Shown one piece after another: positions 1 through 14,109 of a DNA stretch of 64,000 nt. Where the stretch lies: contig JAPHSW010000017.1 in the NCBI GenBank assembly GCA_026196615.1, positions 1 through 64,000 of the forward strand, written 5' to 3'. Position 1 is the stretch's first letter. Each line of letters starts with the position of its first letter. Made by a program: the position numbers and the translations under genes. Origin of the DNA: Gammaproteobacteria bacterium. GTDB taxonomy: Bacteria > Pseudomonadota > Gammaproteobacteria > GRL18. The notes below the pieces were generated by a model. The model saw nothing but the letters and a program-made list of their open reading frames with translations. It was not told where the DNA came from and did no database searches.

Positions 1-1058
1 ATCAACTCAAAAATTCCTTAAAAATACAGGGATTTCAGGTTGATATTGCTGAGGATGGTTTATCTGCATGGGAAAAACTCAATTCAAATCAGTATGATCT
101 CATTATTACTGATTATGATATGCCCTATGTTGATGGCCTTGAACTTTGTTCTCGGATACGCCAATCTAATAAGTTTGACAACCTCCCGATAATTATCGAA
201 ACCAGTAAAGATTCTAAAGCTGATCAAGTTAAGATCCGTTCAATTGGAATTCAAGCCTTTATCACTAAGCCTTTTTCCCCGGATCGTCTAATTGCAGAAG
301 TGGAGCGTGTTTTAGCCGAAACTCGCTTAAAGCAACATCAAAGTGCTATGAGTCATTACCTGCCAGATTCAGCAATTTCACATATTTCTGCGGGCAATCA
401 AAAAAATAGTGAACCAATTGCTGAAGATAAATTTAGGACTTTACTTTTTTCAGATATTGTACAATTCACCCACACTTCAGGTCATTTATCTTCCAGAAAA
501 GTGGTTGACTTTTTGAACAGCTATTTTGATCGCATGGTTGAAGAGCTCATGCGTTTTGATGCTACCATTGATAAATTTATTGGTGATGGTATTTTTGCTT
601 CCTTTGATTTACAGGAAGAGGGTGCTTTTCGAGCTGTTTGTGCCGCCGCCGCCATGCTTAAAGCCTTACCTGAATTACGAAAAACGACAGGTCTCGATAT
701 TCATATGCGTATAGGTATTCACTCAGGTCATGTGATTTCTGGAGATATAGGTAGTCGGCATTCAAGGCGAGACTTCACCCTAATTGGTGAAAATGTCAAT
801 ATTGCTGCACGTTTAGAGCATTTGGCAAAACATGATGGTATTTTGATTAGTCATGCGACTTATAAAATGATTCAGGATAGAGTGACAGTTGTATCAACCC
901 CTCCTCTAAAATTAAAGGGGATAAAAGAACCTATTAAGGCTTATTTAATCAAATCCATTAAATCCTACCATTCCTTTTCTAAAGAAATGGAAAAGAAACA
1001 TACTTCAGGAAAGCGAAAAGAAAATTCAATTGAAAAAATTTTCACTCCACACCTCTGA
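1..1058 (+). CDS. Response regulator receiver-class III nucleotidyl cyclase (5' partial)
   Basis: The reading frame is open from the first complete codon at base 3, so the start lies outside the window. The N-terminal part is a receiver domain: the phospho-acceptor Asp is encoded at 111-113 in the motif LIITDYDMP, and a conserved Lys lies in ITKPFSP. After a short linker comes a class III adenylate/guanylate cyclase domain. Its two metal-binding Asp are in LLFSDIV (codon 453-455) and FIGDGIF (codon 585-587), followed by RIGIHSGHVISGDIG and the IGENVNIAARLE element. It should make cAMP or cGMP under control of a sensor kinase; the substrate cannot be told from sequence alone. The C-terminal tail of about 40 residues is Lys/Ser-rich. 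A weak inverted repeat (GGTCTA/TAGACC, about 1080-1103) follows the stop. Confidence 0.9.
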   Translation, partial: QLKNSLKIQGFQVDIAEDGLSAWEKLNSNQYDLIITDYDMPYVDGLELCSRIRQSNKFDNLPIIIETSKDSKADQVKIRSIGIQAFITKPFSPDRLIAEVERVLAETRLKQHQSAMSHYLPDSAISHISAGNQKNSEPIAEDKFRTLLFSDIVQFTHTSGHLSSRKVVDFLNSYFDRMVEELMRFDATIDKFIGDGIFASFDLQEEGAFRAVCAAAAMLKALPELRKTTGLDIHMRIGIHSGHVISGDIGSRHSRRDFTLIGENVNIAARLEHLAKHDGILISHATYKMIQDRVTVVSTPPLKLKGIKEPIKAYLIKSIKSYHSFSKEMEKKHTSGKRKENSIEKIFTPHL

Positions 1059-1158
1059 CTTTGATTCAGATGGGCTTCTGGTCTAGACTGTATAGAGTAG
1101 ACCTTCACTAGCTCAGTTTTGTTTGAGTCTGAATGGATCGATAACTCTTTAATAAAAG

Positions 1159-2325
1159 ATGATAAAAATAATTAAATATATTTTACTTTGCTTTTGTAGT
1201 GTCCTTTTATTGGCAACGTCAACCTCTTTGGTTGTCGCTGCAAATAAGGATGCTAATTATTACTTGCGGGAAGCGTCTAAGGCTTATAACAAGGAAGATT
1301 ATCCTCAAGCAGAAAAACATTTCCGAAAATTGCTTCAAATGAAAGTGCCTATGCGAGGGGATTTTTATTATTATTATGGAAAAACACTTTATTTTAATGG
1401 TGATTATGAGAAGGCAGCGGATAATTTAAGTGCTTTTACAGAAACGGTGGGGAAAAAAAGTAAATATTATAGTGAAGCGAGCCGCTTATTAATGCGTTCG
1501 AAAAAAAAGATAGCAAAACAAAACCCAGAATCGAAGCAAGAGAAGAAGCAAAAGACGAAGCAAGAACAGCAATCCAAACAAAAAAAACAATCCCAAGCAT
1601 CTAAGAATAAAGCCGTTGGTAATAAACACTCATACATCCCTGAAATGATAACCATTCCAACAGGTTCATTTATTATGGGAAGTAATCATGGATCGCCTGA
1701 TCAAAAACCACCTCATAGAATAAAGATTAAAAAAAGTTTTGCTATGGGAAAATATGAAGTTACTTTTGCTCAGTATGATGTTTTTGCTAAAGCGACGAAA
1801 CGGAAAAAACCAGATGATCATGGGTGGGGGCGTGGTAATCGTCCCGTTATTAATGTTTCGTTACAAAATGCCCATGATTATGCAAACTGGCTCAGTAAAA
1901 AAACAAAGAGACGCTTTCGACTCCCCACAGAAGTGGAATGGGAATATGTGGCTCGTACAGGGTTTAAAAGTCAACTTGGTTTTAATGATTTAGTTGGTTT
2001 GGGAGATGCCAATTGTGATGGTTGCCGATATTTTTGGGAAAGCGCAAAAACAGTTGATGTCGGCAGTTTTGATGCTAATAAATATGAGATTCATGATCTC
2101 TTTGGCAATGTGTGGGAATGGACTTGCTCTTTTTATACTAAACGTTATAACGGTCTGGAAAAAAAATGTGCTGACAAGCATGATTTGGAAGGCAAAACAA
2201 TCGCAGTACGTGGGGGAGGCTGGAACTCATTCAGCGAGATGCTGCGATCTTATGTTAGATTTAATAATTTCCCCACTTATCGTAACAATGATTTAGGGTT
2301 TCGCCTGGTTGAGGAACTTGATTAA
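1159..2325 (+). CDS. Secreted TPR protein with FGE-sulfatase (SUMF1) domain
   Basis: This is a 388-residue protein. Residues 1-28 form a signal peptide ending near VVAANK. Residues about 30-110 look like TPR helices (YYLREASKAYNKEDYPQAEKH). A Lys/Gln-rich linker covers about 113-150. The rest is a formylglycine-generating-enzyme-like domain: PTGSFIMGSN near its start, then RLPTEVEWEYVAR, GNVWEWTCS and RGGGWNS, and ending NNDLGFRLV. This fold includes true sulfatase activators, EgtB-like enzymes and many non-catalytic proteins. The Cys residues seen (GDANCDGC and others) do not establish the activator Cys pair, and no sulfatase gene is nearby, so the substrate is unknown. It is probably periplasmic. 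It lies 100 bp after the cyclase gene on the same strand and may be co-transcribed. Confidence 0.8.
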   Translation: MIKIIKYILLCFCSVLLLATSTSLVVAANKDANYYLREASKAYNKEDYPQAEKHFRKLLQMKVPMRGDFYYYYGKTLYFNGDYEKAADNLSAFTETVGKKSKYYSEASRLLMRSKKKIAKQNPESKQEKKQKTKQEQQSKQKKQSQASKNKAVGNKHSYIPEMITIPTGSFIMGSNHGSPDQKPPHRIKIKKSFAMGKYEVTFAQYDVFAKATKRKKPDDHGWGRGNRPVINVSLQNAHDYANWLSKKTKRRFRLPTEVEWEYVARTGFKSQLGFNDLVGLGDANCDGCRYFWESAKTVDVGSFDANKYEIHDLFGNVWEWTCSFYTKRYNGLEKKCADKHDLEGKTIAVRGGGWNSFSEMLRSYVRFNNFPTYRNNDLGFRLVEELD

Positions 2326-2350
2326 CTACTTAAAATTTGAAAGTAGTTTA

Positions 2351-3865
2351 TCAACGTTTTAACGCCCCAATCCAACTTTCACTTGCACCTTTTGTGATGT
2401 CTAAAATAACATCTGGGAAAATTCCAAATATTATAATGAGCACACAAAAGCTAACGCTCAATAATAATTCTCTTGTACGCAAATCCATTGCAGTTGCTAT
2501 AACATCATTGTGAACAGGCCCTAAAAAGGCACGCTGATAAATTGTCAGGAAGTAAGCTGCTGCCAGAACAATTCCAACCAGAGCAGCAATACCTGCACCC
2601 GTATGACTTTCCAGAACGCTGATTAAAATCAAATTTTCTGCAATAAAGCCATTGGTTCCAGGAACCCCCATTCCTGCAAGACCAAAGATGAAGAAAAAGC
2701 TAGCCAGTAGAGGCATTGTTTTAGCAACTCCACCGAGACTAACGACTTCTGTAGAACCTGTACGATGATGTAAAAAACCGATCAGAATAAAAATACCACC
2801 AGCAACAATTGTGAAATTAAATAATTGAAATAGAGCTCCTTGAAGCCCTTGTGTTGAAAATGAGGCTATGCCTAATATGACGAGGCCAACATGACTAACA
2901 CTGGAAAAGGCCAACATTTTACGTAGATTTGTCTGGCTGATTGCCAATATTGCCCCATAAAGTACACCTGTAATACCAAGTCCTGCTAAGAGCCAGTGGT
3001 AATTTTGAGCGGCATCAGGTGCCAGTGGTACGGTAAAACGAATCAGACCATATGCACCAAGTTTTAGACCCGTCATTATGGCGGCAATGCTTGCTGGCCC
3101 TTCCATTGCAATTGCCGGGAGCCAGGTGTGCAAAGGAAAAATAGGTGCTTTAAATGCAAAGCCAAGTAATAACAAAAAGAAAATAGTCGTTTGCAGCTCT
3201 GCTGGCAAAGGATTATTTAACAAAGTTATGTAGTCAAAAACAAGTTCACCAGATGTGAGCTGAGCATGATCAAATGCGGCCAAAATAAAACCAAAAAGCA
3301 GGGGAACACCACCAGCCATCATAACCATCGTATACTTAACTGCTGCATAGCGACGATTAGGTCCTATGCCCCAATAAATGATTAGAAAATAAATTGGAAT
3401 CAAAGTCATTTCCCAAAAGAGGAAAAAAAGTATGGTATTGAGAGAAATGAATATCCCTAAGGTTGCAGCTTGTAATAATAGTAATAGAATAAAGTATAAA
3501 CGGGGCATACTTCGAATACTGTTCCATGAAGAAAGAATAATACCAATAAATAGTAGACAAGTAAGTGGAAGAAAAAGAACAGATATACCGTCAATACCAA
3601 CAATGTAGTCAATATTTAAACTGGGTATCCAGGAAAAACGTTCGATAAACTGGAAACCAGAAGTAGTTTGATCAAATTGAAATATAACAAAAAGTGATAG
3701 GATTAAACTGCTGGTTGATGCGATTAGTGCAATCCAACGAGCTTTTAATTGATCCGCTGTGAGCAGTATAATGATAGAAGCAATGGGTAATACCATTAAT
3801 AATAGGCTAAGCACAGGAAAGCCTATGGTTGAATCAGTATTTGTAATTGTCGTCTCTGAAATCAT
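2351..3865 (-). CDS. NuoM/MrpD-like proton-pump subunit C of the Dab cluster
   Basis: This 504-residue, strongly hydrophobic protein belongs to the proton-conducting membrane transporter family (NuoM/NuoL/NuoN, MrpA/D), with about 14 predicted membrane spans. The four residues that matter for pumping in E. coli NuoM can be matched: Glu in FLFWEMTLIP (E144), Lys in FAFKAPIFPLHTW (K234), Lys in TGLKLGAYG (K265) and Glu in GFIAENLIL (E407). It is the last gene of the minus-strand cluster, 91 bp after subunit B. No nuoA-K gene lies nearby, so it is probably an accessory ion-translocating module for the DabAB carbon-uptake system and not part of complex I. That assignment comes from context. Confidence 0.85.
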   Translation of the reverse strand: MISETTITNTDSTIGFPVLSLLLMVLPIASIIILLTADQLKARWIALIASTSSLILSLFVIFQFDQTTSGFQFIERFSWIPSLNIDYIVGIDGISVLFLPLTCLLFIGIILSSWNSIRSMPRLYFILLLLLQAATLGIFISLNTILFFLFWEMTLIPIYFLIIYWGIGPNRRYAAVKYTMVMMAGGVPLLFGFILAAFDHAQLTSGELVFDYITLLNNPLPAELQTTIFFLLLLGFAFKAPIFPLHTWLPAIAMEGPASIAAIMTGLKLGAYGLIRFTVPLAPDAAQNYHWLLAGLGITGVLYGAILAISQTNLRKMLAFSSVSHVGLVILGIASFSTQGLQGALFQLFNFTIVAGGIFILIGFLHHRTGSTEVVSLGGVAKTMPLLASFFFIFGLAGMGVPGTNGFIAENLILISVLESHTGAGIAALVGIVLAAAYFLTIYQRAFLGPVHNDVIATAMDLRTRELLLSVSFCVLIIIFGIFPDVILDITKGASESWIGALKR

Positions 3866-3956
3866 CAGGACATCCTTAAAGTTTATTGTTTAAATAAAAT
3901 GTTCTTTATTTGGGGCATGTTACTTCAATAACATTACCCTGCTATCTTATCTTCAC

Positions 3957-5474
3957 TTAGTGAAGATGACTGTAAATCTCACCTAATCCGTGCATTGAAT
4001 TTTCAATTAAACCGAGCCATGGCTCAGTATAAAATCCAGTTGTAACCAGAGTTAGAATAATCGTTGCTGCTAGAATTTCTTCTGAACGAGATGCTGGTTT
4101 TATCGCTTTTTTGTGCCATGTTCCAATTTTTTGAGATAAAAAAGCACGTTGGAAAGCCCAGAGTAGAAAGCCTGCTGCGACAACGTTACCTAATGCCGCA
4201 GCAATTGTAACGAGTGCTCCAAAACGATGAATAGAAGCTTCAAGTATCAGGTGAGCCGCGTCAAATCCAGGAGTTCCTGGCATTCCTACAATACTTAAAC
4301 CTGAAATTAAAAAGGCAATACCAATAAAGGGGATGTGATCAAATAAGCCTCCCAGCTTTTTTAGTAACATGGTGTTTGTACGCCAGAAGACAAAGCCCGT
4401 CATAAATAACAATCCTGAGGTAGCTAGTCCGAAGTTTATTGAAAGTAATATAGCCCCTTCAAAAGCAATTTGGTTTAGACTGAACAAGCCAATAATAAGC
4501 ACACTGGTATGGCTGACCACAGCAAAAGACAAAAGTCGTCGAAGGTTGACTTGCATCATAGCCATAACCGCAGCATAAAAAACGCCAGCGACAGCAAAAG
4601 TAACGATAAACTCATGCCATTGAATTATGGCTTCAGGGAGTAGGGGGAGAACAAAACGTATAATAGCATAAATACCTACTTTTAAGCCCAGTAAAAAAAC
4701 CGGGGCCATAGCAACTGTACCATGTTCTGCTACCAATGGTAGCCAGCCATGTAGAGGAAATAAGGGAATACGAACAGCCAAACCATAAAATAAAAGAAAA
4801 AAGATAATGGAACTGATGTTTTCATTGACGGTTACATCTTTCAGTAACATGAGATCAAATGTCCAGGCATTACCTGTCTCATGCATGTAATTCCAACCCA
4901 GCATTGAAATACCAATTGCTAGAAGTACAATACCCGTTAGCATAAACTGTAGGTATCTTGCCAGAGCCATATCACGTTCAGGAGAAGTTGCCCAACGATG
5001 TAGCATATAGCCGATGAGAGATAGCTCTAAAACTGACATTAGAGCAAACCACATCAAATCAAGAGTTGTAAACAGACTCATTAGAGTTGCTTCGATCATT
5101 AACACGATAAATGGTAGGTGCCTGGGTCTTTCAAGAGGGATGATTGCTCCATAGGCAATCACCATAATACTCAAAATACCTGTCAATAATATAAAGAGAA
5201 CACTCATACCATCTACTGCGGCATGATAAGAGAGCGGTGCTAACAGGCTTAGTTGTTCGCTAAACTGCATAGCAGAGTTTGATGGATCAAATGTTCTGTA
5301 TAAATCAACAATAAAGAGCATTTCAACAGCAGTAACCGCAATAGCTAGATTGAAAAGGTGTTTGGAATTGCGGAAACTGTATAAAACAAAAATACCTACT
5401 ATTGGTATAATTTGTAAAATACTCAATATCGGATAGGCTGATTGAGAAGCCCAATGAATTTCAGTAATTGTCAT
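3957..5474 (-). CDS. NuoM-like subunit B of the Dab cluster, with altered key residues
   Basis: This 505-residue polytopic membrane protein is in the NuoM/MrpD family. The TM5 Glu is kept (SVLELSLIG), as is the TM8 Lys (LLGLKVGIYAIIRF). The TM7 Lys is Arg here (AVRIPLFPLHGW), and the TM12 Glu found in GFIAE of both sister proteins is Ala here (GFDAAHLIL), with an Asp two residues earlier. The proton path is therefore probably changed, or the protein has become structural. It begins 10 bp after the dabB stop on the minus strand, and a short palindrome overlaps its own stop codon (CTTCACT/AGTGAAG near 3951-3965). It was probably produced by duplication within the cluster. Confidence 0.85.
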   Translation of the reverse strand: MTITEIHWASQSAYPILSILQIIPIVGIFVLYSFRNSKHLFNLAIAVTAVEMLFIVDLYRTFDPSNSAMQFSEQLSLLAPLSYHAAVDGMSVLFILLTGILSIMVIAYGAIIPLERPRHLPFIVLMIEATLMSLFTTLDLMWFALMSVLELSLIGYMLHRWATSPERDMALARYLQFMLTGIVLLAIGISMLGWNYMHETGNAWTFDLMLLKDVTVNENISSIIFFLLFYGLAVRIPLFPLHGWLPLVAEHGTVAMAPVFLLGLKVGIYAIIRFVLPLLPEAIIQWHEFIVTFAVAGVFYAAVMAMMQVNLRRLLSFAVVSHTSVLIIGLFSLNQIAFEGAILLSINFGLATSGLLFMTGFVFWRTNTMLLKKLGGLFDHIPFIGIAFLISGLSIVGMPGTPGFDAAHLILEASIHRFGALVTIAAALGNVVAAGFLLWAFQRAFLSQKIGTWHKKAIKPASRSEEILAATIILTLVTTGFYTEPWLGLIENSMHGLGEIYSHLH

Positions 5475-5484
5475 TTAGCTCTCC

Positions 5485-7062
5485 CTAAATAATGACCACA
5501 AAGGTTGCCAGGATTAATAACATCAAATAGCGAGGCTGACTGAGTAATTCTTCAATTTGCAGCAGATAATGACCAATGATATTGAGTAATTTGAGAAGAC
5601 CATCACCACCGCTTTTAAGGACCAAATGTTCTTCAAACCAGAAAAGCATATCAGCAAGACTTTCCAAAATCTTACCTGCAAGACCGTGACCGCGGGAAAC
5701 TTCTTCTTTCTCAGCGGCTTTATGTGAACTGGAACCCTGAATTTCCCAATCAGCGATTGAAGTAATTGCGCTGGTTTGTTCAGGTAGACCGACAAGACGA
5801 TTAATGACTTTTTCATCAAAACGTTCAGTATCATGAGCAATACTTTTTATTGGTTTTACTAATAACCAGTCGGCAATGGGATCAAGCCAAAAACGTTGTA
5901 AGCTGGCTGTGTACAACCAACCCTGACGTTTTAATAATGGATGGACAGGACGTGCCTTGCGATCCATGAGATGCATGATTGCTGGAGCATGAAGAAATTG
6001 ATAAGCGCGCCAGATGGCATGTAAAACCAGATGCCAACTGGCTAACTCAAACCAGCCCATACCGCAACTGAAAAACATGAGACCAACTTGAGAGGTTGTG
6101 GAAAAAATTAAGTTGCTCTTTACATCAGTTTGTACCAGATTGCTAAAGAAACCATATAAAATGGTAAGCAAGCCAATAAATGCAAGTGTACTCATAATAA
6201 TGGGTGAATTTTCCAGAATGGGTTGTAGGCGAATAACAAGATACACACCTGCATGAACCATTAATGAACCGTAAAAAATAGCACTTGATGGAGTTGGTCC
6301 TTCTAAAGCACGTGAAATCCACGGTGCGAAGGGGACTTGAGCTGACTTTGCAATTGCTGCTAATAGAAAACTGGCGGCTAGAATATTGTTACCTAAAGGT
6401 GTTAATGAACTGGAGCCAGCAAGAATTTCTGTCCATTCAAGAGTTGTAAGTAAATGAAATGATAAGAATATGGCAATAATAAAACCTGCGTCACCAATAC
6501 GATTAGTAATAAAAACTCGTGTGGCATTTTTGACGGCAATGGGACGGTCATATACATAAGCAATTAACAGGTAAGAGCAGACTCCTGCTAACTCCCAACC
6601 TGTGAATGTTAATACTACATTACCAGACATGACAATAAGTAACATGGCTCCCATAAACAGGCTCATTATCATGAAAAAGCGCTGATAACCGGCTTCACGA
6701 TGCATATAATTAACTGAAAATCGGATCATTAGTACAGAAATAGTGGCAACTAAAGTCATCATTACCAGGGCAAATTTGTCCAGGTTAAAGCTTAAATTAA
6801 CTTGATAGTCACCACTGCTGAACCATTGAGCTATCTCCATTTGCCCAGGCACACCAATAACTATTGCGTGTAGATCAACAGCCAGCACAATTAATAAAGA
6901 AATCAAAGCGGTTCCATTGGCAATTATCGTTGTTTGCTTTTCACCAGATTCGCCACGATTTTTACCGCTGATAAAACCAATAGCAATTGCTAACGCACCT
7001 AGCATTGGTATGAATGGGATTAACCAGACGAAAGCTTTGAGTGTTGAGTTTAATTCGTTCAT
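5485..7062 (-). CDS. dabB: DabB, NuoL-like membrane subunit of the Dab inorganic-carbon transporter
   Basis: This 525-residue protein resembles the N-terminal two thirds of NuoL/ND5. Family motifs include FTGWELAGVCSYLLI with the TM5 Glu, FITNRIGDAGF, AIAKSAQVPF with the TM7 Lys, and EGPTPSSAIFYGS. The C-terminal region is amphipathic and ends in a last membrane span. In characterised systems DabB carries the cation flux that drives CO2 capture by DabA. The start ATG overlaps the dabA stop by 4 bp (ATGA), so translation is probably coupled and equimolar. The pairing with a DUF2309 protein is what separates this gene from a true nuoL. Confidence 0.93.
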   Translation of the reverse strand: MNELNSTLKAFVWLIPFIPMLGALAIAIGFISGKNRGESGEKQTTIIANGTALISLLIVLAVDLHAIVIGVPGQMEIAQWFSSGDYQVNLSFNLDKFALVMMTLVATISVLMIRFSVNYMHREAGYQRFFMIMSLFMGAMLLIVMSGNVVLTFTGWELAGVCSYLLIAYVYDRPIAVKNATRVFITNRIGDAGFIIAIFLSFHLLTTLEWTEILAGSSSLTPLGNNILAASFLLAAIAKSAQVPFAPWISRALEGPTPSSAIFYGSLMVHAGVYLVIRLQPILENSPIIMSTLAFIGLLTILYGFFSNLVQTDVKSNLIFSTTSQVGLMFFSCGMGWFELASWHLVLHAIWRAYQFLHAPAIMHLMDRKARPVHPLLKRQGWLYTASLQRFWLDPIADWLLVKPIKSIAHDTERFDEKVINRLVGLPEQTSAITSIADWEIQGSSSHKAAEKEEVSRGHGLAGKILESLADMLFWFEEHLVLKSGGDGLLKLLNIIGHYLLQIEELLSQPRYLMLLILATFVVII

Positions 7063-10000
7063 TTGATTGTTCCTCCGGTGGACTGACGGCCTCTCACATC
7101 ATCACCTTCGGGTTGACTGATTAATGCCAGCTTTAATGCTTCATTATGATCGGCATACCACTCAGAAGAAGCTTTAACCTCAGGGGACTTATCTTGCTTT
7201 CCTTCCCATGGAACAAAACCCTTCTCAGGTTTAAAAACGGTAATTTGATTGCTGTCTGGATCTTTTGCACTGAGAAGAATCCAGCCTTTACCAACCAGTT
7301 CTTGAAGAGCGGGTTGAGCGGTATAGATTTTTGTTAAGACTTCGACAGTATGCTCAACAACAATTTGTAAACGCATGGCTTCATGAATTTCAATCATTTG
7401 CCTTGGTAAACCTGTTCTTAAATCACCACTACTACCATCCATAACACCAAATAAACCATTAACATTATGAGTAATTTTTGAACCACTTCCATAACGTTCG
7501 TTGTCTACGGTAGAAAAATAATACTCCAGACTAATACCAGCACCAACAGGGCCATTGGCAAGAAGAAGTCCTTCCAAAATATTTCCCTCTGGATCCGTAC
7601 TGGGATCATAGGATATTAAAAAGATACGGCGATCAAAAAAAGCACCTTGAGTGGCACTGCGACGGCCAATAAAACAGATTGCATTAGTTGCATGTCCTAA
7701 TTCGGGACGAGCCTGACTGAAGTCATAAGAGCGCCCAATAATATGTTTGAGAGCATTTTCTTTGCTTGTTGTTTTAGGATTTGGTGCTGAGGCTAAACGA
7801 CGACAGCGTTCATGGGCAGACCACTGACTAGCTTCATAGACTTCATGTTTCATTTTTTCAAAAGCATTTTGTAATGAATCTGGAATTTGATCGGTATCAT
7901 ACCAGATCATTTTTTCATCACAGGTGTTGTGTTCAGTCCCTAAAAACCAGGTATTAGAAGAAATATCCAGTCCTCGTTCTTTTAGTAAAGCACGGACTTC
8001 AGGTCGATTGGCTATGGTGGCAAAAGTGCGGGCATTAGGACCACTGTGGCGACCACTGCAAGCCCCGCAGTCATAAGCTGCCATATGAGGGTTATTTTGA
8101 CTGATTGAGCCATGCCCGACAATAACAATAAATGGAGCAAAACCATTCACTAAACCAATGTTGCGCAGAAAAGTTTCAATTTTGTCAACTTGCTCAGAGT
8201 CAGTGAAACCAATTTGTTCATCACCTGGTTTGGGCTCATCTTTGGGATGATGACAGTTAACTTCTACTCTTGTTGATATTTCTAAATCAAACTTATCGCG
8301 TAATAATTCAGCGAGTTCTCCCGTTTGTCTTGGGAGAAATACTTTGCCTATTAGAGTTAATAAGGATGCAGGAGCTGACAATGCGATAAGTACAGCTGTA
8401 CTTAATAAGTTACGCCGAGTTTCCTGGTTAATGAGTGCTTTTGCTTTTAAGCGTAAGTTGCGTTTTTGTTTATGTTTTGCCAGTATTGCATCCTGTCCTT
8501 TATGAGCTATTTCCTGAAACTCATATGCAGGTACTGCGACAACGGGGCATAAAGGTTTTGGAATGTCATCATCCAGACCAAGCCAGTTGATATGCATACC
8601 AAAGTGAGCGGCTGCACCAAATGTTTCAATGTTTGGGTTTAATTCTTCAAGATGTCGACGTATGCCTTCTTCGCGATCATCCATACAAAAAACTAGTTGA
8701 GCGTCAGGTAACTCATTGCGTTTTTTCCAACGACCACGACCCTCATTATCGACAAGTGTATTAAAATAGATTTCATGGTAATTGAGTTCATAGGCCTGCA
8801 ACCAGATGAAACCAGTGGTTTCTTCGTCCATACTATTAATTAGACTAAATATTTCATCGATATTTGATTGTTCTAATGCTTCAATGTCCTGGGCACTGTA
8901 TCCTATAAATTGAAAAAGTCGAAATAGTGGCCATGCATGTTGACTGACTCGATAGCCTGGTGTTTTTGTTCCCACAGGGCTTTGTTGCCATGTCCAGATC
9001 ATATTGGCAAGTTTTAGCCAATTATCCTCATTAGAAAAATCGCTTTTAGAGCGTTCAATTTGATGTGCTGAAAGCGTTGCTAAATATTCAGGTAAGCGCT
9101 CATTATAGAGTGTGTAACGCACCAGAAAATCAGAGCTACGATGACGAAAATAATACCGGAGTGTTTCTAAACTGGCTTCAGAACGCCATAATTCACTACA
9201 GACTCTCTGTGCAAAAATACGCTCCAATACTAAGCGTACAGCTAAATAATCCAACATATTCACAGGAGTGGTTTGACCATCATAGCCTGGTTTTGTATGT
9301 CTCCAGAGAAACATTCCTGACCAACCAGGTAATTCCAGAGCAAGACGTTCCAGATAAGCTGTCCAGCGGTTTTGACTGACGCCCTGACGTTGTAGTTCCT
9401 GGATTATGGTATCCATAGGATCATCAGATAAAGCATCCAGATTATCAGTCCAGTCATCCAGATCATCAAAAATCCAGGATAAATCTTCATGGGCACTTTG
9501 TTTCCAGAAAGAATAAAAACCTTGCTCGCGTTCAGTGTGATGCCAGGCAGCCATACCTTGATCAAGATAAGAGGATAAGTATCGTAGTAAAACTGGGCGG
9601 ATATCATCCATTAGATCGATACCAGAAACCGCTTTAATAAAACCACTAAGAGTAACTTTTCTGCCAATACTTTCTAGAAGTTTCCCTAATAATTTTCGAG
9701 ATTCTTTTTGTACCTGCTTGTGAATATGAGAATGATTGGCTTCTTTAGTGTTACCTGCTTTTACTTGCTTATTAAGCATTTCTTCAGCACGATCGGGAGA
9801 CATATCAATCATATCTTCCGGATGTAACAATAAATGATCTAAATCCAGAGTTTTTAAGATGGCTTGCCAAAGACCAGAGATTGCTTCTCGCTCATTTGAT
9901 AAAGAGTCATTTGTTGATGAGTTAATATTGCTATTGGTAAGAAAGGTTTGACACTGCTCGATACTCAGATCGCTTTGACAACGTTCCAGTGCTTCCAGTT

Positions 10001-10457
10001 CTTCAATTTGCCAGGTTAACTGACAATTAGTTACTGGTTTTAGTGAATAAAGTAAGGTGCTGAGAATGATATCTTTATGACATATGGTCTTGCCATTATG
10101 TTTATAGATGACCTTATCCAGGTCTAAATTGTTTTGCTCACTAAGAATGCTTTCCAGATTTTTAAGTGTAATTCGACCCTGAGAAAAATACTGGCGAAAT
10201 TGCTCATCACTTAAATAACCTTTGGCACCTGTAGTGGCTTTTGATTGAGCTAGAGCTTCTGGAAATGATAAGTGCTGATAGCCATGTAACGTGTTATGGT
10301 GCACAAAATCTTTGAGTGATGCCTGAGCAGGTAAAACATGTTCAAGATGTTTGAGTAAATGTAATATGTTTTCACGCATTTCATCCATATTGCCTGTTTT
10401 ACCATGCTTGGATTGAATCGTGTTTTGAACTGTAGATGTTTGACTAGAATCTGACAT
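7059..10457 (-). CDS. dabA: DabA, DUF2309 zinc-binding CO2-hydrating subunit of the Dab transporter
   Basis: This 1132-residue protein belongs to the DUF2309/UPF0753 family. In Halothiobacillus the family is known to have a beta-carbonic-anhydrase-like zinc site of two Cys, an Asp and a His. All four can be placed here: C591 and D593 in LVFCMDDREEG, H782 in VIVGHGSISQ, and C797 in AAYDCGACSG. The 15-residue H-to-C spacing matches my memory of the characterised protein. An N-terminal motif LPAQASLKDFVHHNTLHGY is also typical. DabA sits on the cytoplasmic side of DabB and is thought to hydrate CO2 one way to bicarbonate using ion motive force. The protein is about 300 residues longer than I recall for the Halothiobacillus DabA, as seen in some other family members. 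An alternative Met at residue 24 is possible. Confidence 0.95.
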   Translation of the reverse strand: MSDSSQTSTVQNTIQSKHGKTGNMDEMRENILHLLKHLEHVLPAQASLKDFVHHNTLHGYQHLSFPEALAQSKATTGAKGYLSDEQFRQYFSQGRITLKNLESILSEQNNLDLDKVIYKHNGKTICHKDIILSTLLYSLKPVTNCQLTWQIEELEALERCQSDLSIEQCQTFLTNSNINSSTNDSLSNEREAISGLWQAILKTLDLDHLLLHPEDMIDMSPDRAEEMLNKQVKAGNTKEANHSHIHKQVQKESRKLLGKLLESIGRKVTLSGFIKAVSGIDLMDDIRPVLLRYLSSYLDQGMAAWHHTEREQGFYSFWKQSAHEDLSWIFDDLDDWTDNLDALSDDPMDTIIQELQRQGVSQNRWTAYLERLALELPGWSGMFLWRHTKPGYDGQTTPVNMLDYLAVRLVLERIFAQRVCSELWRSEASLETLRYYFRHRSSDFLVRYTLYNERLPEYLATLSAHQIERSKSDFSNEDNWLKLANMIWTWQQSPVGTKTPGYRVSQHAWPLFRLFQFIGYSAQDIEALEQSNIDEIFSLINSMDEETTGFIWLQAYELNYHEIYFNTLVDNEGRGRWKKRNELPDAQLVFCMDDREEGIRRHLEELNPNIETFGAAAHFGMHINWLGLDDDIPKPLCPVVAVPAYEFQEIAHKGQDAILAKHKQKRNLRLKAKALINQETRRNLLSTAVLIALSAPASLLTLIGKVFLPRQTGELAELLRDKFDLEISTRVEVNCHHPKDEPKPGDEQIGFTDSEQVDKIETFLRNIGLVNGFAPFIVIVGHGSISQNNPHMAAYDCGACSGRHSGPNARTFATIANRPEVRALLKERGLDISSNTWFLGTEHNTCDEKMIWYDTDQIPDSLQNAFEKMKHEVYEASQWSAHERCRRLASAPNPKTTSKENALKHIIGRSYDFSQARPELGHATNAICFIGRRSATQGAFFDRRIFLISYDPSTDPEGNILEGLLLANGPVGAGISLEYYFSTVDNERYGSGSKITHNVNGLFGVMDGSSGDLRTGLPRQMIEIHEAMRLQIVVEHTVEVLTKIYTAQPALQELVGKGWILLSAKDPDSNQITVFKPEKGFVPWEGKQDKSPEVKASSEWYADHNEALKLALISQPEGDDVRGRQSTGGTIK

Positions 10458-10490
10458 TTTGCATAAACTCTTGATTAGCTGATGGCTCTC

Positions 10491-11954
10491 TTATCTTAAA
10501 CTCGTGAATAATTGACTGAAATTATTGGCTGAAGCATCCATTAAATTCAAAGTGAATCCTGGAAAAAAACCAATGTATAAAAAGCCAATGACTAGAATAC
10601 TGGCAGCCAGCAACTCAACGGGTCTTAAATCAGTGATGTCATCCATATTCCCGTGACTGGGACCGGTGAAGAGTCGTCCCATGGTTCTTGCAGCATAAGC
10701 CGCACTGATCATCACACCAATGCTGACAAGTATTACAGTCCATCCCCATTGCTCAAAAGCACCGATAATGACATGTAGTTCAGCAATAAAGCCTGCTGTA
10801 CCAGGCATACCTACAGCAGCAATAAAGGCTAAAGATGTGAATATTGCAAATCGAGGTGTGATTTTGGCCAGAGAGCTATAGTCGGAAATTTCTCGGGTAT
10901 GAGTGCGTTCGTAAAGTAAGCCTATGAGTAGAAATAGAGCACCTGCGACTAGACCATGAGCGACCATTTGCATTAGAGCGCCAGTGATACCTGAAATGTT
11001 CAGTGCTGCAATACCTAATAGTACAACACCCATATGACTAATTGAGGAATAAGCTATCATGCCTTTTAAGTCAGATTGTCTCCAGGCCAATAAACCGCCA
11101 TAAATTAGACTGAATAAAGCCAGTATCATCAAAAATGTTTGTAATGATAAAACGGCTTCGGGCAACATAAATGCCGTACGGATAAGCCCATAGGCACCCA
11201 TCTTTAATAAAATACCTGAGAGTAGAATACTGACAGGGCTGGGAGCTTCAACATGAGCCAGCGGTAACCAGCCATGTATAGGAAATATTGGCATTTTGAC
11301 ACCAAAACCAACCAAAAATCCCAGAAAAATTAAAATTTGAGTATGTTCTGGCAGTGCTCGTGCACCCTCAAGCATGACATCCATAGAAAATGAATGACCA
11401 GGTATCGTATCAAATAAGGCTAGTAAACTGAGCAGCATAAAGACGGAACCGCCCATGGTGTAGAGTACAAAGTTTAGGGATGCCATACTGCGCCGTTTAC
11501 CACCCCAACGGTCAATAAGGAAAAATAATGGTACGAGAGTAAGTTCCCAGAAGACATAAAAAAGTGACCAGTCCTGAGCCATAAACACACCCAACATTGC
11601 AGATTCAAGTAGTAGCATCAGGAAATAATAGCCTTTGGTGCGCTCGGTAATACTATGTGAGGCAAGGATTGAAATAAAACATAATAAGGTGGCAAGTAAA
11701 ACCATTGGAAATGAAATACCATCGATACCCAATGAAAAAGAAGTACCCATTCTGGTATTCCAGGGAACGACTTTACTAAATTGAAGGGCGCTACTTGTCG
11801 TGTCAAATGCGAAAATAAAACTAGCGGCATAGACTAGTGTTAATGTTGCCATGCTGATGGCGGTTTTGCGTATCAATGGTGATTGACTTGGCAATATACT
11901 GATGATTATTGCTCCAATGATCGGCAACAATAATAATAATGTTAGACTATACAT
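10491..11954 (-). CDS. NuoM-like proton-pump subunit A, first gene of the Dab cluster
   Basis: This 487-residue NuoM-family membrane protein keeps all key ionisable residues: Glu in FYVFWELTLVPLFF, Lys in GFGVKMPIFPIHGW, Lys in GILLKMGAYGLIR and Glu in TAGFIAELHVI. It is the sister of the other two NuoM-like genes and looks the most like genuine NuoM. It is first in the minus-strand cluster and lies 33 bp before dabA. Its promoter should be in the 247-bp region shared with divergent parE. No LysR-type regulator gene is adjacent, although such regulators accompany some characterised dab operons. It may have been recruited from complex I or a hydrogenase-type pump; the link to carbon uptake is inferred from position. 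Confidence 0.87.
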   Translation of the reverse strand: MYSLTLLLLLPIIGAIIISILPSQSPLIRKTAISMATLTLVYAASFIFAFDTTSSALQFSKVVPWNTRMGTSFSLGIDGISFPMVLLATLLCFISILASHSITERTKGYYFLMLLLESAMLGVFMAQDWSLFYVFWELTLVPLFFLIDRWGGKRRSMASLNFVLYTMGGSVFMLLSLLALFDTIPGHSFSMDVMLEGARALPEHTQILIFLGFLVGFGVKMPIFPIHGWLPLAHVEAPSPVSILLSGILLKMGAYGLIRTAFMLPEAVLSLQTFLMILALFSLIYGGLLAWRQSDLKGMIAYSSISHMGVVLLGIAALNISGITGALMQMVAHGLVAGALFLLIGLLYERTHTREISDYSSLAKITPRFAIFTSLAFIAAVGMPGTAGFIAELHVIIGAFEQWGWTVILVSIGVMISAAYAARTMGRLFTGPSHGNMDDITDLRPVELLAASILVIGFLYIGFFPGFTLNLMDASANNFSQLFTSLR

Positions 11955-12201
11955 ATAGACTCTGTTTTTGGTAAAAAATGACTTTAGTAAAAATACAGCT
12001 TTGCTTAATTTAGGGTTTGGTCGTAGACTTCCATATGCCGAGAAATATTCGCCAAAATAGAATAGTATGGCATAGGATTTTCTGGAATAATGACGGCGTA
12101 TTATACGTTAAATAGTGATTTTTAGCCAGTGGCTTAGACCCTCTATTTATCACTCGAAGATACAATATTGTCAAATATATTAATGAAGGTTAAAACAATA
12201 A
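11955..12201. promoter_or_regulatory. Divergent promoter region between the Dab cluster and parE
   Basis: This is 247 bp of AT-rich sequence between two divergent genes and must hold promoters for both. I could not fix a convincing -35/-10 pair or operator on either strand. The parE side ends with GAAGG about 12 bases before the start codon, a usable ribosome-binding site. The subunit A side has only a weak AGAGT. Confidence 0.4.
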
Positions 12202-14109
12202 ATGGTAGCAAGTTCTTACGATGCACAGGATATTGAAGTTTTAAATGGTCTTGACCCTGTAAAAAGACGCCCTGGGATGTATACTCAGGTTGAACGACCC
12301 AATCATCTGGCCCAGGAAGTGATTGATAATAGTGTCGATGAAGCTATGGCTGGGTTTGCTCGTCGTCTTGACGTGATTTTATATAAAGATGGTTCATTAT
12401 CAGTTAAAGATGATGGGCGTGGCATGCCTGTTGACTTGCACCCTGAAGAAAAAATTCCTGGCATCGAATTAATTTTAACTCGTCTACATGCAGGGGGAAA
12501 ATTTTCAAATGATAACTATCAGTTTTCAGGTGGTTTGCATGGTGTGGGTGTCTCAGTCGTTAATGCGCTTTCATTAAAACTTGAGATTTGGGTTCGTAGA
12601 AAAGGTGAAGAGTTTCACATGGCCTTTGCCGGTGGTGACAAAACTTCAGATCTGAAAGTCATAGGTGAAGTCGGAAAACGAAATACTGGTACGATGGTTC
12701 GTTTTTGGCCAGATAAGCAATACTTTGACACAACAAAATTTTCAGTGCGCCGTTTAAAACATGGTTTGAAAGCAAAAGCCGTATTGTGCCCAGGTCTGGA
12801 AATTAACTTTAAAGATGAAAATAGCGGTGAAACTGAGAGCTGGCTTTATGAAAATGGCCTGTCTGATTACCTTGTGGATGAGATAGATGGTAGAGAATGC
12901 ATTCCTACGATACCTTTTACTGGACACTTGGAAGGTAACAATGAACAAGCTGAATGGGCTGTACTCTGGTTAGATAAAGAAAGTGAAACATATGATGGCA
13001 CGCTTACCATGGAAAGTTATGCTAACTTAATTCCAACGGCACAAGGCGGAACTCATGTTAATGGATTTCGTACGGGACTAACAGAAGCCATACGAGAATT
13101 TTGTGAGTTTCGTAATCTATTGCCTAGAGGTGTGAAACTGACGCCTGATGATGTTTGGGATAGTTGCTGCTATATCTTATCAGTTAAATTATTAGATCCA
13201 CTTTTTTCAGGTCAGACAAAAGAACGTCTTTCATCTCGTGAGTGTGCTCCTTTTGTGTCTGGTGTGGCAAAAGATGCGTTTAGTCTATGGCTTAATGAAC
13301 ATACTGAAGATGCGGAAAAGCTGGCAGAACAAGTTATTAGTCGTGCTAACCAGCGTATTCGAGCTGGGAAAAAAATAGTACGAAAAAAAGTAACTCAGGG
13401 GCCAGCTTTGCCTGGTAAGTTAGCTGATTGTACTTCTTCCGATTTTAATGAAACTGAACTGTTTTTGGTAGAAGGTGATTCAGCTGGGGGATCGGCCAAG
13501 CAAGCACGAGATAGATACTTTCAAGCGATTATGCCCTTACGCGGTAAAATTCTGAATACCTGGGAAGTTGATTCTGCTCAGGTATTGGCTTCCAATGAGG
13601 TTCACGATATTTCAGTTGCTGTTGGTGTTGAGCCTGGTTCTACTGATTTGAAAGGACTTCGATACGGAAAAATTTGTATTCTGGCTGATGCGGATTCGGA
13701 TGGCTTACATATTGCCACCTTGCTTTGTGCTTTGTTTATTCGACATTTTATGCCGCTAGTGAAGGCTGGTCACATTTATGTTGCCATGCCACCTTTATTT
13801 CGAATTGATATTGGAAAACAAGTCTTTTATGCGCTTGATGAATCTGAGAAAAAAGGAATTTTGGATAGGATTGAGGCTGAAAAAATAAGAGGAAAGGTCA
13901 GTGTTCAGCGTTTTAAAGGATTGGGTGAAATGAACCCTCTTCAATTAAGAGAAACAACCATTGCACCTGATACACGTCGTTTGGTTCGCCTAACGGTAGA
14001 AGAAGGTGATGAGACTTTTAAAGTGATGGATATGCTTCTGGGTAAAAAAAGAGCATCTGATCGTCGTTCCTGGCTTGAAAATAAAGGGGATCTGGCCGAT
14101 ATTAAATAA
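12202..14109 (+). CDS. parE: DNA topoisomerase IV subunit B
   Basis: This 635-residue ATPase subunit of topoisomerase IV decatenates daughter chromosomes together with ParC. The GHKL ATPase domain shows DNSVDEAMAG, DDGRGMPVD and GGLHGVGVSVVNALS. The TOPRIM domain shows LFLVEGDSAGGSAKQARD and the metal-binding ADADSDGLH, followed by the QRFKGLGEMNP element. Its length, and the RLHAGGKF segment followed directly by the glycine loop, indicate ParE and not GyrB; the nearby parC supports this. It is separated from parC by the receiver-GGDEF gene, so the two subunits are split by a signalling gene. Confidence 0.96.
   Translation: MVASSYDAQDIEVLNGLDPVKRRPGMYTQVERPNHLAQEVIDNSVDEAMAGFARRLDVILYKDGSLSVKDDGRGMPVDLHPEEKIPGIELILTRLHAGGKFSNDNYQFSGGLHGVGVSVVNALSLKLEIWVRRKGEEFHMAFAGGDKTSDLKVIGEVGKRNTGTMVRFWPDKQYFDTTKFSVRRLKHGLKAKAVLCPGLEINFKDENSGETESWLYENGLSDYLVDEIDGRECIPTIPFTGHLEGNNEQAEWAVLWLDKESETYDGTLTMESYANLIPTAQGGTHVNGFRTGLTEAIREFCEFRNLLPRGVKLTPDDVWDSCCYILSVKLLDPLFSGQTKERLSSRECAPFVSGVAKDAFSLWLNEHTEDAEKLAEQVISRANQRIRAGKKIVRKKVTQGPALPGKLADCTSSDFNETELFLVEGDSAGGSAKQARDRYFQAIMPLRGKILNTWEVDSAQVLASNEVHDISVAVGVEPGSTDLKGLRYGKICILADADSDGLHIATLLCALFIRHFMPLVKAGHIYVAMPPLFRIDIGKQVFYALDESEKKGILDRIEAEKIRGKVSVQRFKGLGEMNPLQLRETTIAPDTRRLVRLTVEEGDETFKVMDMLLGKKRASDRRSWLENKGDLADIK

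Follow-up and report, generated by a model that had tools for sequence, protein, structure and literature searches.

The 64,000-nucleotide stretch analysed here (the window; positions 1 to 64,000 of contig JAPHSW010000017.1, assembly GCA_026196615.1, from a gammaproteobacterium of the GTDB group GRL18) carries a gene cluster built around dabA and dabB, the two genes of the Dab inorganic carbon uptake system. The listing of open reading frames (ORFs) in the window gives five ORFs on the minus strand, in the transcription order NuoM-A, DabA, DabB, NuoM-B and NuoM-C (Table 1). A preliminary description of this DNA had reported five same-strand genes at these positions and no other complex I gene among them. 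Both statements are borne out, the first by the ORF listing together with family matches, the second by the absence of any further complex I gene within the cluster (2351-11954), including genes for the redox arm such as NuoCD and NuoG. No small Mrp subunit is encoded in 2351-11954 either, among ORFs of at least 100 amino acids. The DabA and DabB ORFs share 4 bp, and PF00361 is matched by DabB as well as by NuoM-A, NuoM-B and NuoM-C. Promoter and terminator scans returned signals no higher than those of shuffled sequence.

Table 1. Genes of the five-gene cluster, residues and segments discussed in the text, and a related fusion gene. Positions are those of the window unless a locus is named; TM, transmembrane helix.
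Feature	Position	Strand	Remarks
NuoM-A	10491..11954	-	487 aa; first gene; TIGR01972 489.7 bits
DabA	7059..10457	-	1132 aa; beta-carbonic-anhydrase-like subunit; PF10070 E=1.4e-233
DabB	5485..7062	-	525 aa; NuoL-type TM1-11 without TM12-14
NuoM-B	3957..5474	-	505 aa; non-canonical channel residues; TIGR01972 280 bits
NuoM-C	2351..3865	-	504 aa; last gene; TIGR01972 459.9 bits
DabA zinc ligand Cys591 (= DabA2 Cys351), followed by Asp593/Arg595	8685..8687	-	invariant
DabA His782 to Cys797, remaining two zinc ligands (= DabA2 His524, Cys539)	8067..8114	-	invariant
DabA membrane "finger" helices, residues 656-723	8289..8492	-	AlphaFold2 and hydrophobicity
DabA His922 (DabA2 Leu658 position)	7692..7694	-	His vs Leu
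DabB Glu157 (NuoL Glu144 / DabB2 Ile151 equivalent; interface ion pair)	6592..6594	-	alignment
DabB C-terminus, residues 388-525	5485..5901	-	amphipathic stretch followed by a single TM helix; may be a lateral element
DabB-NuoM-B fusion ORF	L188:11799-14936; L189:3853-6990		1045 aa; two species of one genus

The five-gene order is strictly conserved. An alignment scan of genomes with NuoM-B found 389 relatives, 80 of which were kept for locus analysis. The exact order on one strand recurs in 48/48 loci uncut by contig ends, a count conditional on the presence of NuoM-B, which was the bait; the DabA-based sample below is an independent test. The other kept loci are consistent pieces of the set, one of them with dabB disrupted, and the same order is present in six further, non-congeneric genomes. 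An arrangement that recurs in every complete relative is not due to chance. The comparison with two-gene dab loci that the preliminary description had proposed shows two kinds of neighbourhood, both in the genus and in distant members: the two-gene pair dabA/dabB or the exact five-gene set (L071 and L074, five-gene loci cut by contig ends, and L034, a five-gene genome, were not counted as two-gene). Median intergenic gaps in five-gene loci are at most 10 bp, and in 19 of 52 loci the gene immediately upstream, on the same strand, belongs to the SulP family.

In a class-wide sample of 274 genomes, 68 encode DabA. NuoM-B (>500 bits) was detected in 13 of these 68 and in 1 of the 206 others (Fisher p=6e-8, with related genomes not being independent), and the single genome with NuoM-B and no DabA is a 77%-complete assembly. 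Phylum-wide, 35 of the 398 genomes sampled encode NuoM-B. Among the named carriers are Ca. Thiodiazotropha, tubeworm and Solemya symbionts, Sedimenticola, Ca. Venteria, Magnetococcales, Sulfuricella and Sulfurimicrobium. Two NuoM-B matches in one genus (G094:C62 and G215:C101) contain one TAA apiece within the region matched.

All three NuoM-type proteins pass TIGR01972 (cut-off 264 bits), by which the NuoM class was assigned; of the earlier label "NuoM/MrpD-family", the first half is therefore retained and the second dropped. Likewise, the three proteins do flank DabA and DabB as described, but they are not equivalent to one another, and DabB, which is missing TM12-14, is not an ordinary DabB. 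The channel residues TM5 Glu, TM7 Lys, TM8 Lys and TM12 Glu are all retained in NuoM-A (67/67 relatives) and in NuoM-C (77/77). NuoM-B retains the TM8 Lys alone: across 89 sequences TM5 Glu and TM12 Glu are lost, TM7 Lys is replaced by Arg (Arg235) in 89/89, and an invariant Asp405 and His408 lie near the position of the lost TM12 Glu. Judged by these residues, NuoM-B is probably not a standard proton pump. In the tree each protein forms a clade of its own, NuoM-A beside complex I NuoM (support 0.98), NuoM-B (1.0) and NuoM-C (0.997). Recent duplication of, or borrowing from, complex I was considered and rejected on account of the age of these three clades.

DabA matches DabA2 of the DAB2 complex (9rd0_A) with E=4.8e-65. 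A Foldseek search of its structure model against the PDB gave no significant match, so the assignment is based on sequence. The zinc ligands and the Asp-Arg dyad are kept in 71/71 five-gene DabAs and in 50/50 comparison DabAs. The membrane finger has predicted AlphaFold2 helices at residues 656-682, 684-707 and 709-723 and a hydrophobic stretch at 684-709. It carries Ala692 at the position of DabA2 Glu444, a residue that forms the periplasmic half-channel of DAB2 together with DabB TM12-14 and whose removal abolishes DAB2 (PMC13144422). None of the 71 five-gene DabAs is acidic at this position (A/L/T/V/M/C/G/I), in contrast to nearly all two-gene DabAs. The deepest members L034, L041 and L042 have Asp there, and loss of the finger acid is thus not universal at the base. 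A second change concerns DabA2 Leu658, strictly conserved among 150 homologues and represented by Gln or His in canonical beta-carbonic anhydrases (PMC13144422): His occupies the position in 71/71 five-gene DabAs, against Leu in 44/50 others.

DabB is sister to other DabBs (support 0.999) and separate from the host NuoL. NuoL model matches are confined to residues 10-368, and Foldseek superposes the first ~370 residues on NuoL/NdhF at about 2-3 Å; cyanobacterial NdhF (6khj_F) aligns across the full length (TMq 0.73). Beyond residue 311, hydropathy indicates a sole TM helix at 506-525, and the AlphaFold2 model (mean predicted local distance difference test score, pLDDT, 81) has amphipathic helices in place of TM12-14. 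The C-terminal amphipathic stretch measures 122 residues, compared with 60 in the host NuoL, and the model, of low confidence in this part, at most hints at a NuoL-like lateral clamp. In 2M-type complex I, a lengthening by 26 residues has been postulated to reach across one extra subunit (PMC9040806). The NuoL Glu144 equivalent is present in 81/82 five-gene DabBs and missing from 16/18 two-gene DabBs. In NDH-1MS and complex I this residue is part of an ion pair where subunits meet. Conserved ion pairs of NdhF3 in NDH-1MS are located at the interface with NdhD3 (PMC6981117), so the retention of this glutamate fits a DabB with a NuoM-type neighbour. All 82 five-gene DabBs also carry His260 to Tyr and Lys347 to Arg replacements. 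The two-gene DabBs that have the glutamate, L078 and L082, form a sister lineage; their DabA is without the finger Glu and carries His at 658, and their DabB has the Glu, Tyr and Arg, yet keeps TM12-14. L078 has one additional distant NuoM-like ORF (2747-4261).

In a few genomes the five genes are no longer together. In G068 and G199, two species of one genus, they are scattered and all five parts are present: the ORF that follows DabA encodes DabB in its N-terminal half and NuoM-B in its C-terminal half, while NuoM-A and NuoM-C stand alone (L209-L212) and are placed by the tree within their respective clades. The equal length of the ORF in the two species is the basis for accepting the fusion as real. 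In G074, DabA is on a separate contig from NuoM-A/DabB/NuoM-B/NuoM-C. The retention of all five when unlinked, and the fusion of two of them, argue for a functional and physical unit rather than simple co-regulation. Another apparent fusion, in Ca. Sedimenticola endophacoides (L161:4962-8045), was rejected as a dabB frameshift; NuoM-C is also split there, and decay or assembly error is possible. At L209:7126-9408 the gene directly after a solo NuoM-C looks, by eye, like that of a beta-carbonic anhydrase.

The host genome (G000, 99% complete) has its own NuoL, NuoM and NuoN on contig C50 and NuoD on C251, which excludes the case, raised in the preliminary description, that the NuoM-type genes are the missing subunits of a split complex I. 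It also has two large-subunit genes of ribulose-1,5-bisphosphate carboxylase/oxygenase (RuBisCO); one is cut at a contig end, and the two were judged from sequence to be form II and form I. The host is a RuBisCO autotroph. No RuBisCO gene was found beside the five-gene loci with the two host RuBisCO queries.

We favour the view, with a probability of about 0.65, that the products form one obligate five-subunit complex of the DAC/DAB kind that hydrates CO2 at the expense of the proton motive force (PMF), like a distal arm of complex I without its redox part. What is read directly from sequence is the five parts and the constancy of their order, the residues lost and gained, co-retention and the fusion; from these we infer the physical assembly, the order of subunits, protons as the ion, the direction from CO2 to bicarbonate and the stoichiometry. 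The zinc-bearing, beta-carbonic-anhydrase-like DabA would sit on DabB at the tip of the array. DabB would act as a NuoL-type half-channel, providing TM1-11 with the half-channel on the cytoplasmic side and the ion pair of the interface. With neither DabB TM12-14 nor the DabA finger glutamate, its periplasmic half-channel would be incomplete, so protons would have to enter it laterally by way of adjacent NuoM-type subunits. The complete channels that supply them are predicted to be NuoM-A and NuoM-C, and NuoM-B may be a non-conducting or modified adaptor adjoining the DabB C-terminus. NuoM-B may also be the end of the subunit array, by analogy with DabB2, where absence of the TM5 glutamate is linked to having no neighbour. 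Since DabA and DabB have lost parts that DAB2 needs, the three extra subunits are probably obligatory rather than optional. Whether the details go further, to a redox-free vectorial carbonic anhydrase whose DabA-DabB pair is unable to conduct protons alone and leaves proton delivery to the complex I-type subunits beside it, as an independent and electron-free counterpart of the NDH-1MS tip with NuoM-B as an end-capping or coupling adaptor, we would put at even odds.

The enlarged complex of the preliminary description is thus kept, in the form of a larger and obligate assembly, on the strength of synteny, co-retention, the fusion and the losses in DabA and DabB. Its "up to four ion-translocating modules" are not, as NuoM-B has lost three channel residues and DabB one half-channel. 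Sequence points to two complete channels (NuoM-A and NuoM-C) and one half-channel (DabB), and four pumping modules are unlikely.

Several observations weigh against the five-subunit complex. Shared descent and co-regulation could by themselves produce a strict gene order. The host genome has no gene for a carboxysome or microcompartment shell protein, which makes the benefit of accumulating bicarbonate less evident. The C-terminal helix of DabB is modelled with low confidence (pLDDT 41-71 for residues 390-510), and the sister lineage L078 and L082 has the DabA and DabB residue changes without the five-gene set. The structure models are of monomers. Finally, a search of the openly accessible literature turned up neither a structure nor biochemical work on any member with five genes.

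The most serious competitor, though an unlikely one, is a self-sufficient DabA-DabB hydratase accompanied by a co-expressed but separate Mrp-like antiporter, the NuoM trio, serving pH or sodium homeostasis. Two subunits suffice in DAB2 (PMC13144422), gene linkage alone is no proof of binding, and an Mrp-type operon does adjoin a dabA in another genome (L099). However, DAB2 depends on TM12-14 of DabB and on the finger glutamate of DabA, and neither is present here. The interface glutamate of DabB is kept, one genus has a DabB-NuoM-B fusion, and the trio is neither of the MrpD type nor accompanied by small Mrp subunits. The L099 locus (874-12781; the same genome place as L025) has its dabA beside a SulP gene and what looks like an Mrp-type operon with small membrane ORFs, one NuoL-type and two NuoM-type proteins, and is possibly a second, different enlarged DabA system.

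Somewhat less probable still is reverse operation, in which CO2 hydration within hosts rich in CO2, or another DabA reaction, is exergonic and drives ion export, or bicarbonate dehydration feeds a non-carboxysomal RuBisCO. Such a role would suit a host without a carboxysome shell gene, the many members that are symbionts at high CO2, and the canonical carbonic anhydrase residue His922. Against this stand the established energetics, from which several protons per CO2 would cost more than CO2 hydration yields, and DAB2 itself, which is PMF-driven and has structural features held to block reverse dehydration (PMC13144422).

It is improbable that the five proteins serve as an alternative distal arm on a complex I core, with redox-driven CO2 hydration as in NDH-1MS, where CupA sits on NdhF3 beside NdhD3 (PMC6981117). 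NuoD is indeed present in 14 of 15 five-gene genomes tested, but the host complex I is already equipped with its own L, M and N subunits. Moreover, G051 (99% complete) has a divergent cluster on two contigs (L074, L199), broken where NuoM-B would be, and neither NuoD nor a complex I NuoM was detected in that genome. In G051 the ORF just upstream of NuoM-A is of the SulP family. It is very improbable that the NuoM genes encode host complex I subunits that were misplaced or duplicated, for despite belonging to the same protein family they form three ancient clades apart from complex I NuoM, and the host has the NuoL/M/N and NuoD genes elsewhere.

Among known systems, the closest is DAB2 (DabA2-DabB2) of Halothiobacillus neapolitanus (PDB 9rd0, PMC13144422). 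The five-gene set shares with it the Cys2His zinc site, the Asp-Arg dyad and DabB TM1-11. Unlike DAB2, it adds three NuoM-type subunits, its DabB has no TM12-14 and keeps the Glu144 equivalent (Ile151 in DabB2), and its DabA is without finger Glu444, with His in place of Leu658. In cyanobacterial NDH-1MS (CupA/CupS-NdhF3-NdhD3; PMC6981117), too, a zinc protein that hydrates CO2 sits on a NuoL-type tip subunit with NuoM-type neighbours joined through ion pairs, but CupA is unrelated to DabA and the complex requires a redox arm, none of which is encoded in the cluster. Extra antiporter-like subunits and a longer lateral helix at the tip are also known from the 2M complex I of Nitrospira and Complex_I_3 of Manganitrophaceae (PMC9040806), which in contrast are complete redox complexes with a lateral-helix insertion of ~26 residues. 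Mrp antiporters resemble the set as arrays of NuoL/NuoM-type subunits without redox parts, and differ in having small Mrp subunits; the extra proteins here are of the NuoM type.

The gene neighbourhood itself has been reported before. In the 2017 COGNAT study (PMC5700660), genes for NuoM and SulP were frequent neighbours where ybcC (dabA) precedes a nuoL homologue, and the number of membrane genes was suggested to reflect the number of ions. The "clade C" operons of COG3002/YbcC with COG1008 (NuoM) and SulP in that study are almost certainly the same clusters; it proposed exergonic ion export rather than CO2 uptake, did not separate the NuoM proteins into three families, and resolved neither the losses of residues nor the fusion. 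The earlier statement that such a complex is not described thus holds for biochemistry, for which nothing was found, and not for the NuoM and SulP neighbours or the link to ion number. The literature searched contained no account of the residue-level division among subunits, of a DabB with a half-channel, of the absent finger glutamate, of the DabB-NuoM-B fusion or of three separate NuoM families, and nothing on the five-gene cluster in symbionts.

Existing in a two-part version and in a five-part version with half of the core's channel gone, the system offers a natural test of electron-free proton passing between complex I-type subunits. It would represent a module for uptake of dissolved inorganic carbon in lucinid, tubeworm and Solemya symbionts, Magnetococcales and sulfur oxidisers. 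As some carriers, like the host, have no carboxysome shell gene, it bears on how inorganic carbon is acquired in such cells. One prediction is that dabAB alone from these organisms would yield a false negative on expression. Elsewhere in the host genome, contig C223 (L086) encodes a second NuoD-like protein and a NuoM-like ORF, perhaps of a membrane hydrogenase-like complex, and NuoD-like genes similar to that of C223 occur in some congeners.

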